A DNA stretch of 64,000 nt from Synechococcus sp. MVIR-18-1 (GTDB taxonomy: Bacteria; Cyanobacteriota; Cyanobacteriia; PCC-6307; Cyanobiaceae), in contig NZ_CP047942.1 of the NCBI RefSeq assembly GCF_014279835.1, positions 2,046,001-2,110,000 on the forward strand, written 5' to 3'. Numbering within the stretch: the stretch's first letter is position 1; every line of letters begins with the position of its first letter. The notes beneath the pieces were generated by a model. It was not told where the DNA came from and made no database searches. It saw nothing but the letters and a program-made list of their open reading frames with translations. The position numbers and the translations under genes are program-made. Positions 38 to 8,900 of the stretch are shown piece by piece.

Positions 38-619
38 ATGCTTTCCTCAGGAAAACAAACCCCCTGTCCAAGTTGCGGCAGGACAAAAGATGGCGATTGC
101 AGATTCAACGACGAAGTAATCCTTTGCCATTCAGGTGAAAGCGGCGGGCCGAACCCAGCCCTCAGGATTGGAGAGGTCGTCAACATCGAAGGGCGTTCAT
201 GGGCACTGGTTAAAACCGGTGCAGGGCACTCCGGTTCAGCACATGTCTTCAAGCCTCACCAACCCAAAAGACAAAAGCCCCAAAAAGCGACACGAACAGG
301 ACGACAGCAAGAGCAACAAGCGAAAGCTGAAGTGGCTTCAATTGCCATAGAACGCTTCTTTGATGAGTTCGACCTGGCCTGGAATGTCATGGATTTTCAT
401 TCCCTTAGCCCTCAAGAACTCAAAGAAGGCATCGATGCAATTGAAACAGCGCATCAAACAGGACAAGAACTCTCAGATTTGATCCAGTCGATCTGGAGTG
501 AGAACCATGATCTTCGGAGTCGCCACAGAGACCGGTTCAACGCTTGTATCCGCAACCTGGGTTATCAAGTCGACGACCTGCGCCACTTTCGCAATCACTA
601 CCTCGGGGAGATCATCTGA
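38..619 (+). CDS. Small zinc-ribbon protein of a mobile element, primase-type N-terminus
   Basis: The N-terminus carries a CPSCG knuckle at about residues 10-14, followed by a Cys in DGDCRFND and a LCHSG motif. This spacing is typical of the zinc-binding domain at the front of phage and plasmid primases. No TOPRIM or catalytic primase domain follows; the remainder is a basic, Gln/Lys-rich linker and a helical C-terminus. Its TGA stop overlaps the ATG of the VirE-type gene (ATGA-type coupling), so the two are probably co-translated and the zinc protein may act as a primase accessory. A short open frame ends with TGA at 32-34, suggesting another gene of the same operon lies to the left. A purine-rich GAGGGGGG stretch precedes the start. 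The exact function is inferred. Confidence 0.7.
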   Translation: MLSSGKQTPCPSCGRTKDGDCRFNDEVILCHSGESGGPNPALRIGEVVNIEGRSWALVKTGAGHSGSAHVFKPHQPKRQKPQKATRTGRQQEQQAKAEVASIAIERFFDEFDLAWNVMDFHSLSPQELKEGIDAIETAHQTGQELSDLIQSIWSENHDLRSRHRDRFNACIRNLGYQVDDLRHFRNHYLGEII

Positions 620-1992
620 TGTCCGTCGAAAAATTTGATGCAAACCGTCTAACCAAAGAAGAGCGCCTTGCAGTTCTGAATGGCAGCAAATCACTTGTCG
701 ATCTCGGAGCTATCGAACGACCCCATAAAGGTTTACCTGTACTACTTACAGACCTCTCACCACCTGATAACCCGAGAAACAAAAATGGAGAAGAAAAAAA
801 CCATACAGCAGGAAGTTGGGCGAATTTCGTTGCTGATCGACTCGGAAAGAAGCTCCGCTTCAACGACCTCACAGGACTAATGGAATACGAAGGAACCTCA
901 CTTCCAGTAGATGAAACGAGCCTCCTATATGTCCGAGCCCAACAGGATGGACACAAGGTTCAAGAGAAGCAATGCAACGATGCGCTGCTCACTAATGCAT
1001 ATCACAATCGATTTGATCCCATCCGCGATTACCTAGAACACCTTGAACGGGACGAAACTATACAGCCCGCCTGCCTCAAAAGCCTAAGCAGCTCCTATCT
1101 AGGTACAGATGATCCGCTCTATGACGACATACTCCGCGTGGCACTTCTTGGTGCTGTTCACCGACGACTAGACCCTGGCTGTCAGTACGACGTAGTTGCT
1201 GTCCTCAAAGGGGATCAAGGAATCCGTAAATCAACCTTCTGGAAAGTTTTGGCCTCTCCAAAGTGGTATTGCTCCAGTGTCCCTGACTCCGACAAAGACC
1301 TGCTATTGAACGTTCACTCAACCTGGATCTTCGAGCTAGCGGAGCTTGAGAACGTGACAACCAAACGTGAAGTCGGGCAGCTCAAAAACCTAATCACTAC
1401 CTCAAGCGATCACATCCGTATTCCCTACGGGAAGGCAACCGAAGAAAAAGAACGCAACAGCATCTTTGTTTCCTCGGTCAATGGCGATGCCTTCCTTCGG
1501 GATGAAACAGGGCACCGTCGATTCCTAGTCATCGAATGCCCTCAAAGTTTTAAAGACGGTGAATCAATTGATATTGAAGCTGTGGTTCGAGACCGTAACC
1601 AGATCTGGAAGGCTGCCTTGCTCGCATACCGCCAAGGGGATCTACCCATGCTCAATACAGAACAACAATTGGAATCCAACCGACGCTGCGGAGATTATGA
1701 AATCAGCTCCCCATTCGAAGGGCTAATTGAACGCTGGCTGTCTTTGCCCAGCTCACCAACTCGTTTCACCAGTGATGAAGCTCTCATCCAGTCAGGCTGC
1801 AGAACCGAAGGAAATATCAAGCGTGCTGACCAGCAGGAAGTGACCAATGTCCTGACCAAACTCGGTTGGTCAAAACCTATAAACAAGGAAACCATCAACG
1901 GATTCAGAGGCCGCTTCTGGCAAAAAACGACCAACCCAACCCACAAGAATGACATTGGTCAGGGGGTTGGTCAGCAGGTTGGTCATCTATAA
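619..1992 (+). CDS. VirE-family (virulence-associated E) primase/helicase-type P-loop ATPase
   Basis: The protein of 457 aa matches the pattern of the VirE family found in phages, satellites and plasmids. A P-loop-like GDQGIRKST lies at residues 198-206, an acidic Walker B-like segment TWIFELAEL follows at about 235-243, and then come the family-typical IPYGKATEE and LRDETGHRRF segments. Such proteins act as replicative helicase/primase partners of small replicons. The usual Gly before the P-loop Lys is Arg here (R203), which is noteworthy. The start at 619 is chosen because it overlaps the preceding stop; an upstream in-frame start at 544 would lie deep inside the preceding gene. Its 3' end encodes a Gly-Gln-Val repeat created by the TTGGTCA heptamers. 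This is the key replication gene of the element. Confidence 0.85.
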   Translation: MSVEKFDANRLTKEERLAVLNGSKSLVDLGAIERPHKGLPVLLTDLSPPDNPRNKNGEEKNHTAGSWANFVADRLGKKLRFNDLTGLMEYEGTSLPVDETSLLYVRAQQDGHKVQEKQCNDALLTNAYHNRFDPIRDYLEHLERDETIQPACLKSLSSSYLGTDDPLYDDILRVALLGAVHRRLDPGCQYDVVAVLKGDQGIRKSTFWKVLASPKWYCSSVPDSDKDLLLNVHSTWIFELAELENVTTKREVGQLKNLITTSSDHIRIPYGKATEEKERNSIFVSSVNGDAFLRDETGHRRFLVIECPQSFKDGESIDIEAVVRDRNQIWKAALLAYRQGDLPMLNTEQQLESNRRCGDYEISSPFEGLIERWLSLPSSPTRFTSDEALIQSGCRTEGNIKRADQQEVTNVLTKLGWSKPINKETINGFRGRFWQKTTNPTHKNDIGQGVGQQVGHL

Positions 1993-2136
1993 AACAAGCT
2001 CGTGAATGGCATCTCACTATTAGTGACCAAACTGACCAAACAATTTCAAGAGAAATAGATAGAGCATCAAAAGAAGAGGATTGACCGGATACGCAAAAGT
2101 TTCAGAAAGAGATTGGTCGGCTGGTCACTTTGGTCA
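1841..2136. repeat. Cluster of nine TTGGTCA/TGACCAA heptamers (candidate iteron origin or operator)
   Basis: Perfect TTGGTCA occurs at 1866, 1955, 1967, 1979 and 2130, and its complement TGACCAA at 1841, 1853, 2024 and 2033. One-mismatch copies lie at 1827, 1928, 2113 and 2121. The copies at 1955, 1967 and 1979 are exactly 12 bp apart. Those at 1853 and 1866 form an inverted pair with a 6-bp gap. Two groups flank an A-rich stretch (2040-2112). Nine perfect copies in about 300 bp is far above chance (roughly 0.04 expected on both strands). The position just 3' of a VirE-type replication ATPase suggests an iteron origin; operator sites for the next gene are the alternative. Confidence 0.75.
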
Positions 2137-2153
2137 CCCGCCATAATGTATGC

Positions 2154-2477
2154 ATGGCTAAATGCACCAAAAAAGAGAAGTTAAGGCGTGTCGAAGAGCT
2201 AGCTGACTTACTTGTCAAAGGGCTATCTCAACGTCAGCTGATCAACCATGTGCGGGACGATTGGGGGCTCTCAGGAGATCAAGCCACGAGATACATCCGT
2301 GAAGCACGAGACCTCGTCAAATCAGACCTAGATGACGTTGACCGCGCTGATCTACTTGCAGCAAAGATTCAGATGCTCGAACAAATCGCATCTGATGCAG
2401 TCGCAGCAGGACGGGAGAACAACGCAATTGGAGCAATCAGGTTGCTTGACGAGCTTGTTGGCCTGGGACGCGGGTAG
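2154..2477 (+). CDS. Small helical DNA-binding protein, terminase-small-subunit-like
   Basis: The protein of 107 aa has an N-terminal helix-turn-helix-like pattern: a GLSQRQLINHV segment, then WGLSGDQATRYIREAR, and a helical C-terminus. This layout (leader helix, 'W-G-hydrophobic-S' turn, recognition helix ending in YIxxAR) resembles one type of phage terminase small subunit. I infer a DNA-binding role; TerS is a likely but unproved assignment. An ATG at 2130 is also in frame, but it overlaps the last TTGGTCA repeat; the ATG at 2154 starts MAKCTKKEK and fits a basic N-terminus. It lies directly downstream of the repeat cluster, which could be its operator. No large terminase subunit is present in the window. 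Confidence 0.6.
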   Translation: MAKCTKKEKLRRVEELADLLVKGLSQRQLINHVRDDWGLSGDQATRYIREARDLVKSDLDDVDRADLLAAKIQMLEQIASDAVAAGRENNAIGAIRLLDELVGLGRG

Positions 2478-2736: not shown

Positions 2737-3030
2737 TGTCCTGGAATGGTTTAAGGGGGCATTCCACCCCCACGAGTCACTTGGGTGATAAGGCTGACTT
2801 CACCCCATCTCCCTTAATAGGGTCAGGCAGCAACAGGGGCTGTCTGACGGGAGAAACGTACGATGTTGTTCGCAGTTACGGAATTTGCTCTTACCGAGCA
2901 GGCTTCAGTCACCCTCCTTATGCCCCGTCGAAACCATTGCAGCCCCGAAGGGAGAATGGAGCTGAGCGGAATCGAACCGCTGTCCGAAACACCGGTGTGG
3001 ACCACCTAGTCCGTTCAAGAACGGACCTAA
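2737..3030 (-). ncRNA. ssrA: Circularly permuted two-piece tmRNA
   Basis: Read on the minus strand, the acceptor piece comes first. It has a T-arm (GCGGTTCGATTCCGC) and ends in AGCTCCA at 2957, so CCA is encoded. Only 10 nt (2947-2956) separate it from the 5' end of the coding piece, GGGGCTGC at 2946-2939, whose GGGGCT pairs with AGCTCC to rebuild the acceptor stem. This reversed order is the known permuted ssrA layout of the marine Synechococcus/Prochlorococcus lineage, in which the intervening piece is removed to give two RNAs. The resume reading frame lies at 2873-2823. A hairpin at 3009-3026 marks the outer part of the acceptor piece; the exact 5' boundary is uncertain. tmRNA rescues stalled ribosomes by trans-translation. 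Confidence 0.93.
2823..2873 (-). other. tmRNA proteolysis-tag reading frame
   Basis: From the resume codon GCG at 2873 the frame encodes ANNIVRFSRQTAPVAA followed by TGA. The hydrophobic AA end is the usual degradation signal, and the tag matches the cyanobacterial type. Confidence 0.92.
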
Positions 3031-3402
3031 TCATTCTGGCATCAAGACCGACAGACGTCGCCTCCTGAAGAGAAAAAACACCAGTGCTCCTGCGACGCAG
3101 CAAGTAAGCAGGGTAATTATTCAGAAAAACAAAATATTGATACCAACCAAAAGCCAGATTTCAGATACCCACTCCATGCAGTTTTCTTGATATTAAAGAA
3201 GGTAAAACAGTCAAGAAACCATCAACAAGATCATTATTTTGATAGATACATTTAATAAATCAAACAGTAACTTCTCTGCAATTTCGCCACCGCTTTTATC
3301 AAGGCGAGTGCATGTACCGGAGGCTCTCTGGGCTTACAACCAAGACAAGAGACTTAGGCTCAGATACTGTGTCAATCAGTAGGTATAAGTCGAGACGTAG
3401 TA
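3031..3402. other. AT-rich intergenic region without a recognisable gene
   Basis: This stretch is clearly more AT-rich than its surroundings and shows no long open frame. It must hold the ssrA promoter (minus strand) and that of the methyltransferase gene (plus strand). An 8-bp inverted repeat, TTTCTTGA at 3183-3190 and TCAAGAAA at 3211-3218, is the only clear structure I found. Confidence 0.5.
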
Positions 3403-5909: not shown

Positions 5910-8900
5910 TTGGTCCATATCAATCAGGTCGGACTGACCCACTTCAAGTCCTTCGGTGGGGCGATGACCATCCCCCTCGAGACCGGTTTCACTGTCGTGA
6001 CCGGTCCCAATGGGTCTGGAAAGAGCAATATTCTCGACGGCGTCTTGTTTTGCCTAGGCCTGGCCAATAGCCGTGGGATGCGTGCTGATCGCTTACCCGA
6101 TCTGGTCAACAGCGGCATGCTCAAAGCTGGAAAATCAGCTGAGACCACCGTTAGCGTGCGTTTTGATCTGAGCGACTGGCAGCCAGATGCAGCAGAGGAG
6201 GGGATTGAACCCCCTGAGGACGGTCCCTGGATTCAGGCTGATGCCAATGAATGGACGGTGACTCGCAAGCTGCGCGTGATGCCTGGAGGCTCGTACAGCA
6301 GCACATACAGCTCAGACGGGGAGCCGTGCAACCTGCAGCAGCTGCAAACCCAGCTGCGCCGATTACGCATCGATCCGGAAGGCAGCAATGTCGTGATGCA
6401 AGGCGACGTGACTCGGATTGTCTCGATGAGCAATCGGGATCGCCGCGGCCTGATTGACGAGCTGGCGGGTGTGGCACTCTTCGACACCCGAATCGAACAA
6501 AGCCGCCGCAAGCTCGACGATGTGCAAGAGCGGCAAGATCGCTGCCGCATCGTTGAACAAGAACTACTCGCCGCGCGCCAACGTCTTGAAAAGGACTGCG
6601 CGAAAGCACGGGCCTATCAGGACCTACGTGATCAAGTGCAGCGTGGCAGGCAGCAAGAGCTGGTGCTGGCCTTCGAAGCAGCGGAAGCGGAGCTGAAGCA
6701 GCTCAAAGCCCGCCAACAACACCTCAGCGAAAAGGAGATCCGCGACAGCGCGACGATCACCGAGAAGGAAGCAACCCTGTCTGCAGAAGCAGCACGCCTG
6801 CAAACCCTTCAGGAGAGCGTCAAAGCTCTAGGCGAAGACCAACTGCTCAGCGTTCAGGCTGAATTGGCCGGCCTCGATCCCCAGAATCGCGCGCTCGAAC
6901 GTCAAGCCACGCAACATCAGCAAGAAGGAGAACGCTTACAAGGGCTGCGCCACAACCTCACCTCCCGCCGTCACCAACTTCAAGCAGATAGCGAAGGCCT
7001 TAAGCAAGCCAACAACCCAGAGGTGCTCCAGGCCGCCGAGCAAGCCTGCCGCGACGCCGAAGCTGCCGTTGAAATCTCGCGCAGGCGCCTCGGCGATGTC
7101 GCGGGACGATCTGGAGCCTGGCTCGATGAGCAACGCCAACGGGCAGCACGCCGCTCAGACCTGCAGACCACGCTCACGCCTCTTCAGGAGGAGCAACAGC
7201 AATTACAAGAGCGTTTGCGTCAGGACGAAGCCCGTCAATCCGAGCTGCAGCTGGAACGGGACGAAGCCGGTGCCGAAGACCGTGAAGTCCAAGACCAGCT
7301 GGAACAACTGGAGCAGGAGTGGCAATCGCTGCTGGAAAGCCTTCGAAGCGGCAAAGAACAGCTGCAAGAACGCGCTGAAGCCGTTGCGATTCAACAACGC
7401 ACCCGCACCAGGCTTGAAGAGGAGCAGACCCGCCTGGAACGGGAAATCGCCCGTTTAGAGAGTCGACGCGAGGCCTTGCAGGAAACACGCGGCACGGGAG
7501 CCTTACGCCTCTTGCTGGAGGCGGGACTGGATGGCATCCATGGAGCGGTCGCCCAACTTGGCGAAGTAGAAGATCGTCATCGTTTAGCCCTAGAGGTCGC
7601 GGCCGGCGCACGCATGGCCCAAGTGGTCGTTGACGACGACAGGATTGCGGCCCGTGCCATTGACCTACTGAAAAGCAGGCGCGCAGGCCGTTTAACGTTT
7701 CTACCCCTCAACAAAATTCGCTCGCAGGCCGCAGGTGGTGGCGCGGCGATGGCCCGTGGCCGCCGACCGGAGGGAGGCATTGGCACCGGCCTCATTGGTC
7801 GCGCAGTGGAATTGATCCGCTACGAGCCGATCTACAGCGACGTGTTCGGGTATGTCTTTGGCGACACTCAAGTGTTCAGCGACTTAGGCAGTGCTCGAGA
7901 ACAGCTCGGGCGTTTCCGTGCCGTCACCCTCGAAGGTGAACTGCTCGAAAAAAGTGGCGCGATGACGGGTGGAAGCTTCAGCCAGCGCAGCGGTGGGATG
8001 AGTTTCGGAGTGAGCAGTGATAGCGATGAGGCCGAGCCCCTCCGGCAGCGGCTGCTCGAGCTCGGCGAGACCCTGGTCGCCTGCAGACGCGAAGAAAGCC
8101 GACTACTCCAATCTCTTGAGCACGAACGTCCACTGCTGCGTCAGCTGGAACAGAGGCAAGCGGCTCTCGATGCGGAGCGAACAGCAGCCAAGCGAGCCCA
8201 TGGACCACTGCTGGAGCGTTGCCGCCAACGCAGTGAGCGTCTCCACAGCCTTCAAGCCAACCGCACGGAACAGGAACAGCGGCTCCAAGTTCTCAAAACC
8301 ACCATCACCCCTCTACTGGAAGAACTCGAAAGAATCTCCACAGAGGAACGAAAAGTTCAAGCCGAGGCCGATGCCGGGAATTGGCAACAACTCCAGACTG
8401 AACTCGAACAGTCGGACACCGCCTTAGAGCAGGCCCGCCGCCATCGTGATGATCGCCTTCAGCATCAGCGTGAACGCGAGCTGGCGCAGACCCGAATCGG
8501 TGACCAACAACAGGCCATCGAAGAGGAAGAAAACACCCTCCAATTAGCCGTCACAGCACTCGCCGAAGCGCATCAAAGCTGGCGTAACGAACAAAAGGAG
8601 CTGCAAGAACGTCGCCAGACGTTGGAAAGCCAGCAACAAATCCTCCAAACCAAATTTGGGGAAGAGCGTCGCGCTCGGGATGCAGCAGAGGCTTCAGTGG
8701 CCGAGCTGCGACAGAACCTCCAGCAAGCCCGCTGGGAACTTGAACGCTTGCAGGAAGAGCGTCAAGCGATTCAAGAGCAACTGCGCAGCGGTGGAATCCG
8801 CCTAGAGGAACTCAAGCCAACACTGCCCAACCCCCTTCCAGAGATCCCAGAGGAGATCCGCAATGCCGGCCTTGCGGCACTGCAGGAACAGCTGCAGCAA

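Follow-up and report, generated by a model that had tools for sequence, protein, structure and literature searches.

In Synechococcus sp. MVIR-18-1, a dense cluster of the heptamer TTGGTCA overlaps the 3' end of a gene for a helicase-like protein, which raises the question of what these repeats do. A preliminary description of this DNA had taken them for the origin of an undescribed cyanobacterial satellite or plasmid-like element. We analysed the cluster in the window (the whole stretch of 64,000 nucleotides, positions 2,046,001 to 2,110,000 of NZ_CP047942.1), the element that carries it, and related loci in other genomes and in viral contigs. The comparison strongly supports the reading as an origin: the cluster is very probably the origin of an integrated element resembling phage satellites, of the PICI/SaPI type, with iterons that would be bound by the element's own VapE protein.

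A cluster of heptamers at the 3' end of the VapE gene

Our recount gave nine perfect and four one-mismatch copies of TTGGTCA between positions 1827 and 2136 (Table 1), the numbers first reported, and two further one-mismatch copies just beyond the cluster (1753 and 2239). The exact 12-bp period ascribed to some copies is present at 1841/1853 and at 1955/1967/1979. The window contains 22 copies of the word for 9.3 expected, a count attained in none of 100 shuffles. Across 60 Markov shuffles of the window, the best 7-mer had at most five copies per 310 bp, against nine in the real sequence. TTGGTCA as such is no rarity: the whole genome, of 2.45 Mb, has 517 copies, which by simple arithmetic corresponds to about 0.06 copies expected per 296 bp. 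The pair TTGGTCA-N5-TTGGTCA has three matches in the whole genome, all of them within the cluster. The groups of copies do flank an A-rich stretch, as had been claimed, and this stretch has 64% A+T (mean of the window 44%) and 70% purine on the + strand. The reading frame of VapE includes six of the nine perfect copies. The earlier statement that three in-frame copies encode the end of the ATPase is thus correct for the last three, which encode the very end of the protein, but not for the number of perfect copies in frame.

Table 1. Features of the right part of the element and of its insertion site, in positions of the window.
Feature	Position	Strand	Details
Cys-rich 193-aa protein, zinc-ribbon-like by eye	38..619	+	N-terminal CPSCG...C; overlaps VapE start
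VapE-type helicase / replication initiator (putative)	619..1992	+	conserved C-terminal domain, then iteron-encoded tail
Iteron group inside codons of VapE C-terminal domain	1827..1872		perfect 1841-, 1853-, 1866+; one mismatch 1827-
Iteron group encoding VapE C-terminal tail	1928..1985		perfect 1955+, 1967+, 1979+ (12-bp period); one mismatch 1928-
Two perfect iterons just beyond VapE stop	2024..2039	-	2024-, 2033-
A-rich, purine-rich stretch between iteron sets; candidate melting site	2040..2109		similar feature in relatives
Right iteron set	2113..2136	+	perfect 2130; one mismatch 2113, 2121
Small-terminase (TerS) homologue	2154..2477	+	107 aa from ATG
attR	2741..2790		perfect 50-bp repeat of attL (G000:C1:2034728-2034777)
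Cyanobacterial tmRNA gene; 3' end is the integration site	2756..3042	-	RF01851, 298.6 bits; ARAGORN

The protein encoded over the cluster had been called a VirE-type ATPase. This name has to be replaced: the protein is VapE, with a match to PF05272 far above the cut-off of the family (E 3e-57, 194 bits for a cut-off of 25) and PHROG matches to DNA helicases (phrog_1313/256). A profile of 13 VapE rows (A1) finds one structure, a SaPI Rep helicase with the title 'Similar to D. nodosus vapE' (PDB 7pds), which is homologous in the ATPase region (E 2.1e-44) and which we take to be the Rep of SaPI5. Its C-terminal domain is too diverged from that of the window's VapE for a confident alignment, and the predicted structure of VapE is too poor (pLDDT 37) to show the fold of this domain. 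Scans of the genome and of the viral contigs with the single VapE protein found nothing; the profile scan of the viral contigs found one relative, in contig L147.

The cluster ends 17 bp ahead of the start of the next gene. The product of this gene has phrog_34910, of no assigned function, as its best PHROG, and a single Pfam hit, below the cut-off. A profile of 20 relatives (A2) matches the protein directly before the large terminase in the IMG/VR contig L147 (probability 97.6, E 3.7e-12) and the protein that precedes a large terminase and a portal in L172 (probability 97.5, E 8.7e-12, hhalign); the terminase neighbours in the IMG/VR contigs match the large-terminase family PF03237. As the profile matches precede large terminases, we regard the protein as a homologue of small terminases, judging from its sequence and gene neighbourhood. 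Its predicted structure is all-helical (pLDDT 79.5), and searches gave no match among PDB folds at E<1 and none in named phages. TerS-family ORFs are recurrent near VapE: there are 22 in 102 stretches, eight of them (the window's included) on the strand of VapE and no more than 650 bp behind it.

Two other TerS proteins were noted along the way. The phage TerS of L172 (7461-7913; IMGVR_UViG_3300005919_000003) has its first 12 residues, MAKCTKKEKLRR, in common with the homologue in the window, and was found by a scan seeded partly with the first eight of these residues. A second homologue, 69% identical, is encoded in the genome of MVIR-18-1 itself (L016:8140-11495; G000:C1:1003139-1006494), where its neighbours are a gene with weak similarity to excisionases and another helicase/primase-like protein, of 759 aa, and where no 7-mer exceeds four copies per 350 bp.

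The cluster is part of a 14-kb element at the tmRNA gene

The element measures 14.06 kb between the outer ends of its terminal repeats (L015 1728-15790), and the attR copy overlies the 3' end of the tmRNA gene. From the left, the order is attL, integrase-like gene, cargo, small genes, Cys-rich protein, VapE, cluster, TerS homologue and attR. The integrase-like protein, which adjoins attL (L015 1910-3148), matches phrog_1 weakly (E 1.4e-5) and none of the Pfam integrase models. It has relatives at 27-48% identity in named Prochlorococcus and Synechococcus genomes and no match in the viral contigs; neither VapE nor TerS was found in the stretches examined around the four relatives at 48%. About half of the element is cargo, i.e., a Mem_trans transporter, an alpha/beta-hydrolase (esterase) and other proteins, some of which look secreted by eye. 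The C-terminal part of the integrase (residues 329-397) recurs within the cargo as a second copy with 96% identity (L015:6354-6560, G000:C1:2039354-2039560), which suggests an earlier tandem insertion or recombination. The small genes upstream of VapE include a helix-turn-helix ORF (HTH_17, E 0.002, below the Pfam cut-off), and no regulator of the stl/rpr type was identified in the element. The Cys-rich protein matches no Pfam family at E<0.05 and no PHROG family. No structural phage protein was recognised with PHROG among the ORFs scanned in the element, nine cargo proteins included, nor was any capsid-size or interference gene.

We searched other genomes for the insertion site. An exact empty site was not found: the two flanks together match G023 best, and there 680 kb separates them. 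Twenty-six relatives have a match to the right flank, and at least one att-like match is present in 14 of the 15 tmRNA regions examined among them; only L150 (G012:C1:2427500-2446500) has two att copies together with a related integrase. The element of L150 occupies the same tmRNA site, which makes this gene a reused insertion site. It encodes a 48%-identical integrase and a TerS-family ORF, and has no VapE match.

Similar clusters with other words at VapE loci

The family PF05272 is present in 78 of the 400 genomes analysed from the family of the host. In 100 stretches around VapE genes and the window's element, of which three gave none, we identified 110 VapE ORFs, 106 with a closed end. Removing 26 of the latter (19 low-scoring or fragments, six duplicates and one at a contig end) left 80 loci; the score cut-off also left out L066, with six copies of GTAACCA at the end of VapE, a locus that would favour the origin reading. 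We first searched a zone around the VapE stop (-450 to +600) for 7-mers with at least six copies per 350 bp. Such clusters were found in 19 of the 80 loci, compared with 15 of the 799 control tiles (Fisher p 1.3e-12), one of these tiles having 14 copies. The zone was then anchored where the VapE profile match ends, a choice made after the stop-anchored result was known and applied to 78 loci (two on short contigs were skipped); the proportions are 21/78 against 10/1179 control tiles for at least six copies and 25/78 against 25/1179 for at least five. Control tiles away from VapE thus hold clusters as well. Since 53 of the 78 loci have fewer than five exact copies of any word, many relatives lack a cluster or have degenerate iterons.

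The word TTGGTCA is absent from the zone of 71 of the 80 loci, occurs once in seven and twice in one, and reaches nine copies only in the window. The preliminary description had stated that a lack of the heptamer beside homologues of the ATPase would refute the origin. Taken literally, this is what most loci show, but some of the relatives have other words instead; what is conserved is therefore position and layout, not the letters. These words differ by element: TGCCACACCT (L047), GTTGTGAC (L071, L076), GGTTGGGACA (L048), AGGTTGAG (L075, L080) and CCTCGGAT (L049, L052). In the 22 loci that we tabulated, the copies flank a larger gap on both sides, and in 18 of them the most purine-rich 40 bp of the gap (on the sense strand of VapE) exceeds the most pyrimidine-rich. 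The phage contig L147 has eight copies of GTGATCA at +338 to +604, and elsewhere also six-copy clusters of G+C-rich words. L049 (G001) has a second cluster, made of six copies of TGGCCCA, some 4.0-4.3 kb before the VapE stop.

The word tracks the C-terminal domain of VapE

We compared the similarity of the iterons with the identity of two parts of VapE across 23 elements, i.e., the 22 of the 80 loci with at least five copies in the stop-anchored zone, and phage S-LBS1. Iteron similarity correlates with the identity of the 54-residue C-terminal domain (r 0.28, permutation p 0.0005), a modest correlation obtained with a permutation that leaves some shared ancestry in, and less with the identity of the ATPase core (r 0.15, p 0.065). 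The effect of the domain remains when the core is accounted for (r 0.24, p 0.001), whereas that of the core given the domain vanishes (r -0.02, p 0.59). An earlier run with other permutations gave p 0.002 and 0.0015. The result for the domain holds when one of each near-identical pair is removed (n 21), and the partial correlation is 0.26 (p 0.002) without overlapping-codon and near-identical cases (n 17). It also holds when the loci whose iterons overlap the codons of the domain are excluded (n 19), although the core alone then gives r 0.20 (p 0.026), and r 0.04 given the domain. Word similarity thus tracks the C-terminal domain more than the ATPase core, and the word appears to be matched to the putative DNA-binding end of the protein. 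This agrees with origin recognition by the Rep proteins of SaPIs, whose C-terminal domain recognises the origin directly downstream, according to the available part of PMC7581432.

Candidate origins within coding sequence

In the 25 clusters, the median distance between the end of the VapE profile match and the first iteron is 25 bp (IQR -49 to 63), and the position of this iteron relative to the VapE stop is widely variable (IQR -390 to 21), a contrast that is partly built in because the searched zone was bounded at -100 to +650. This suggests that the array is anchored to the C-terminal domain of VapE, with a frame that may stop either ahead of the array or beyond it. Past the end of the domain, the VapE frame does not stay open longer than the other two frames (80 loci, Wilcoxon p 0.54; 25 cluster loci, p 0.36); openings of more than 200 nt occur in frame in 8 of the 25 cluster loci and in 7 of the 50 other frames. 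We therefore rejected selection for an open frame through the origin as a general feature, and without a general excess of open frame the translated tails are unsupported as a feature under general selection.

One locus is set apart from the others because PolA follows in frame. In L110 (4581-9299; G131:C1:1535500-1548500), a single ORF of 1573 aa joins the VapE helicase, a 3'-5' exonuclease and a DNA polymerase I domain, and is followed by a TerS-family ORF. Eight GGAACCA iterons lie at 7094-7379, in the coding linker between VapE and the polymerase. The third-position G+C is 0.84 in the VapE part, drops to 0.43 over the linker and recovers to 0.81 for the polymerase, a dip as expected if the linker were constrained as DNA.

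Alternative explanations

The proximity of the terminase gene leads to another reading, in which the small terminase encoded next door would bind the cluster as its packaging (pac) site: the TerS proteins of some phages bind repeated sites near their own gene, and the spacing to terS is short. However, a TerS-family ORF is found in the analysed stretch of only 6 of the 25 loci with at least five copies (in three of these it follows VapE within 650 bp and in the same orientation), the closest TerS relatives (L016, L063 and L064, 69-72% identical) lack a TTGGTCA cluster, and the word goes with the C-terminal domain of VapE. We rejected the pac site as the main explanation on the evidence of these TerS relatives, and consider it very unlikely. 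The location directly upstream of terS, with short copies in both orientations, would also suit an array of operators for a repressor or activator, encoded by the element, of terS and the packaging genes. This is highly improbable in view of the arrays that lie in or near the end of the codons of the C-terminal domain also where terS is absent behind VapE, and of the like array at the VapE-type gene of phage S-LBS1.

Chance, or repetition in the protein itself (GQ/VG repeats in the tail of VapE), might be invoked given the copies in the VapE frame. The copies are nonetheless on both strands, continue beyond the stop and exceed every shuffle, and relatives have a like arrangement with other words; the out-of-frame copies and the relatives refute this explanation, to which we attach almost no weight. 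The last alternative concerns the element more than the cluster, and is compatible with an origin: a cargo-carrying integrative plasmid, or a tycheposon, might use this origin independently of phages, TerS being a relic. The large share of cargo and the lack of a recognised capsid-size or interference gene are in its favour, but the TerS ORF is intact and TerS-family ORFs recur among VapE loci, and we regard phage independence as rather unlikely. The reading of the cluster as an origin bound by VapE is favoured by its location at the 3' end of VapE, by iteron sets that enclose an A-rich stretch, by relatives in which different words are arranged alike and by the covariation with the C-terminal domain; on these grounds, the origin first proposed for a satellite-like element is supported. 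Satellite status is likely, given TerS and a PICI-like gene order.

Comparison with known elements

PICIs are defined, among other traits, by a small size and the absence of virion structural genes, and the element of MVIR-18-1 is small and has no structural PHROG matches among the ORFs scanned. Further traits of PICIs are a master repressor (stl/rpr) or a regulator of excision, and their induction and packaging by helper phages. It also has an integrase, albeit weakly matched, with a specific attachment site, and its candidate origin has the initiator followed by two iteron sets around an AT-rich region. This corresponds to the PICIs of Gram-positive and Gram-negative bacteria, where the origin comes directly after rep, an AT-rich region separates its two sets of iterons, and the element has an integrase, an att repeat and sometimes TerS; in the available part of PMC6092414 this layout is described for PICIs alone. 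The differences are the location at tmRNA, an integrase that matches no Pfam model, the long block of cargo and the iterons that extend into the codons of the C-terminal domain.

Tycheposons are known from the literature, and some are viral satellites; they have a distinctive deep-branching tyrosine recombinase. Their source paper is Hackl et al. 2023. The element resembles them in its picocyanobacterial host, its putative integrase of the tyrosine-recombinase type and its cargo. Tycheposons occur in Prochlorococcus and other marine bacteria (available parts of PMC10187409 and PMC10872708), and have known integration sites at tRNA genes, of which the latter source mentions seven; our element is at tmRNA. 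In the literature searched, with sparse coverage of subscription journals and none of bioRxiv, we found no iteron origin described for tycheposons, cyanophages or Prochlorococcus. It is thus uncertain whether the element deserves to be called undescribed, as it had been: tycheposons are already known, but we found no iteron origin reported in them. The element resembles PICIs in its predicted working, and we classify it as neither a proven PICI nor a proven tycheposon.

Two further systems are informative. In the PLE satellites of Vibrio cholerae, origin iterons are also bound by the satellite's own initiator, which is RepA and not VapE, and there are three semi-palindromic iterons of about 30 bp; a phage nuclease needs the iterons to cut the origin and may select for their change (all from the available part of PMC8263062). 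In the Synechococcus phage S-LBS1 (MG271909), a VapE-type gene annotated as primase-polymerase has 11 copies of AGGTTAG behind it, between +38 and +374, which form two sets of seven (+39 to +177) and four (+293 to +373). This phage is a complete cultured siphovirus with an integrase, not a satellite, and has its own iteron, AGGTTAGGCA. The main text of its description (PMC6157547) contains none of the terms 'repeat', 'iteron' and 'origin of replication'.

A model for the element and its implications

The layout and position of the cluster, the ends of the element, the recurrence in relatives and the covariation of word and domain can be read in the sequences themselves; a mode of action can be proposed from them. 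The element would excise from the tmRNA gene before replicating. VapE would bind the TTGGTCA iterons via its C-terminal domain, assemble on the iteron sets, open the A-rich, purine-rich stretch between them and load itself to act as replicative helicase. Packaging would follow, with the small terminase directing the replicated DNA to the packaging motor of a helper phage.

More broadly, and tentatively, satellites and temperate phages of picocyanobacteria could share one fast-diversifying replicon, in which the C-terminal domain and the word change together in the manner of plasmid incompatibility groups, perhaps through competition or through phage nucleases that target iterons. The origin of this replicon would lie partly in the codons of the initiator and, in L110, in the coding linker between VapE and PolA; we consider this proposal somewhat less likely than not. 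The results would mean that origins laid out as in PICIs are also present in picocyanobacterial elements and in a cultured cyanophage. The roughly 25 pairs of initiator and origin, mostly with different words, would provide a natural set for deciphering the recognition code of VapE helicases. The association of an origin with a terminase would also give a concrete handle on whether cargo-carrying elements move in phage particles.
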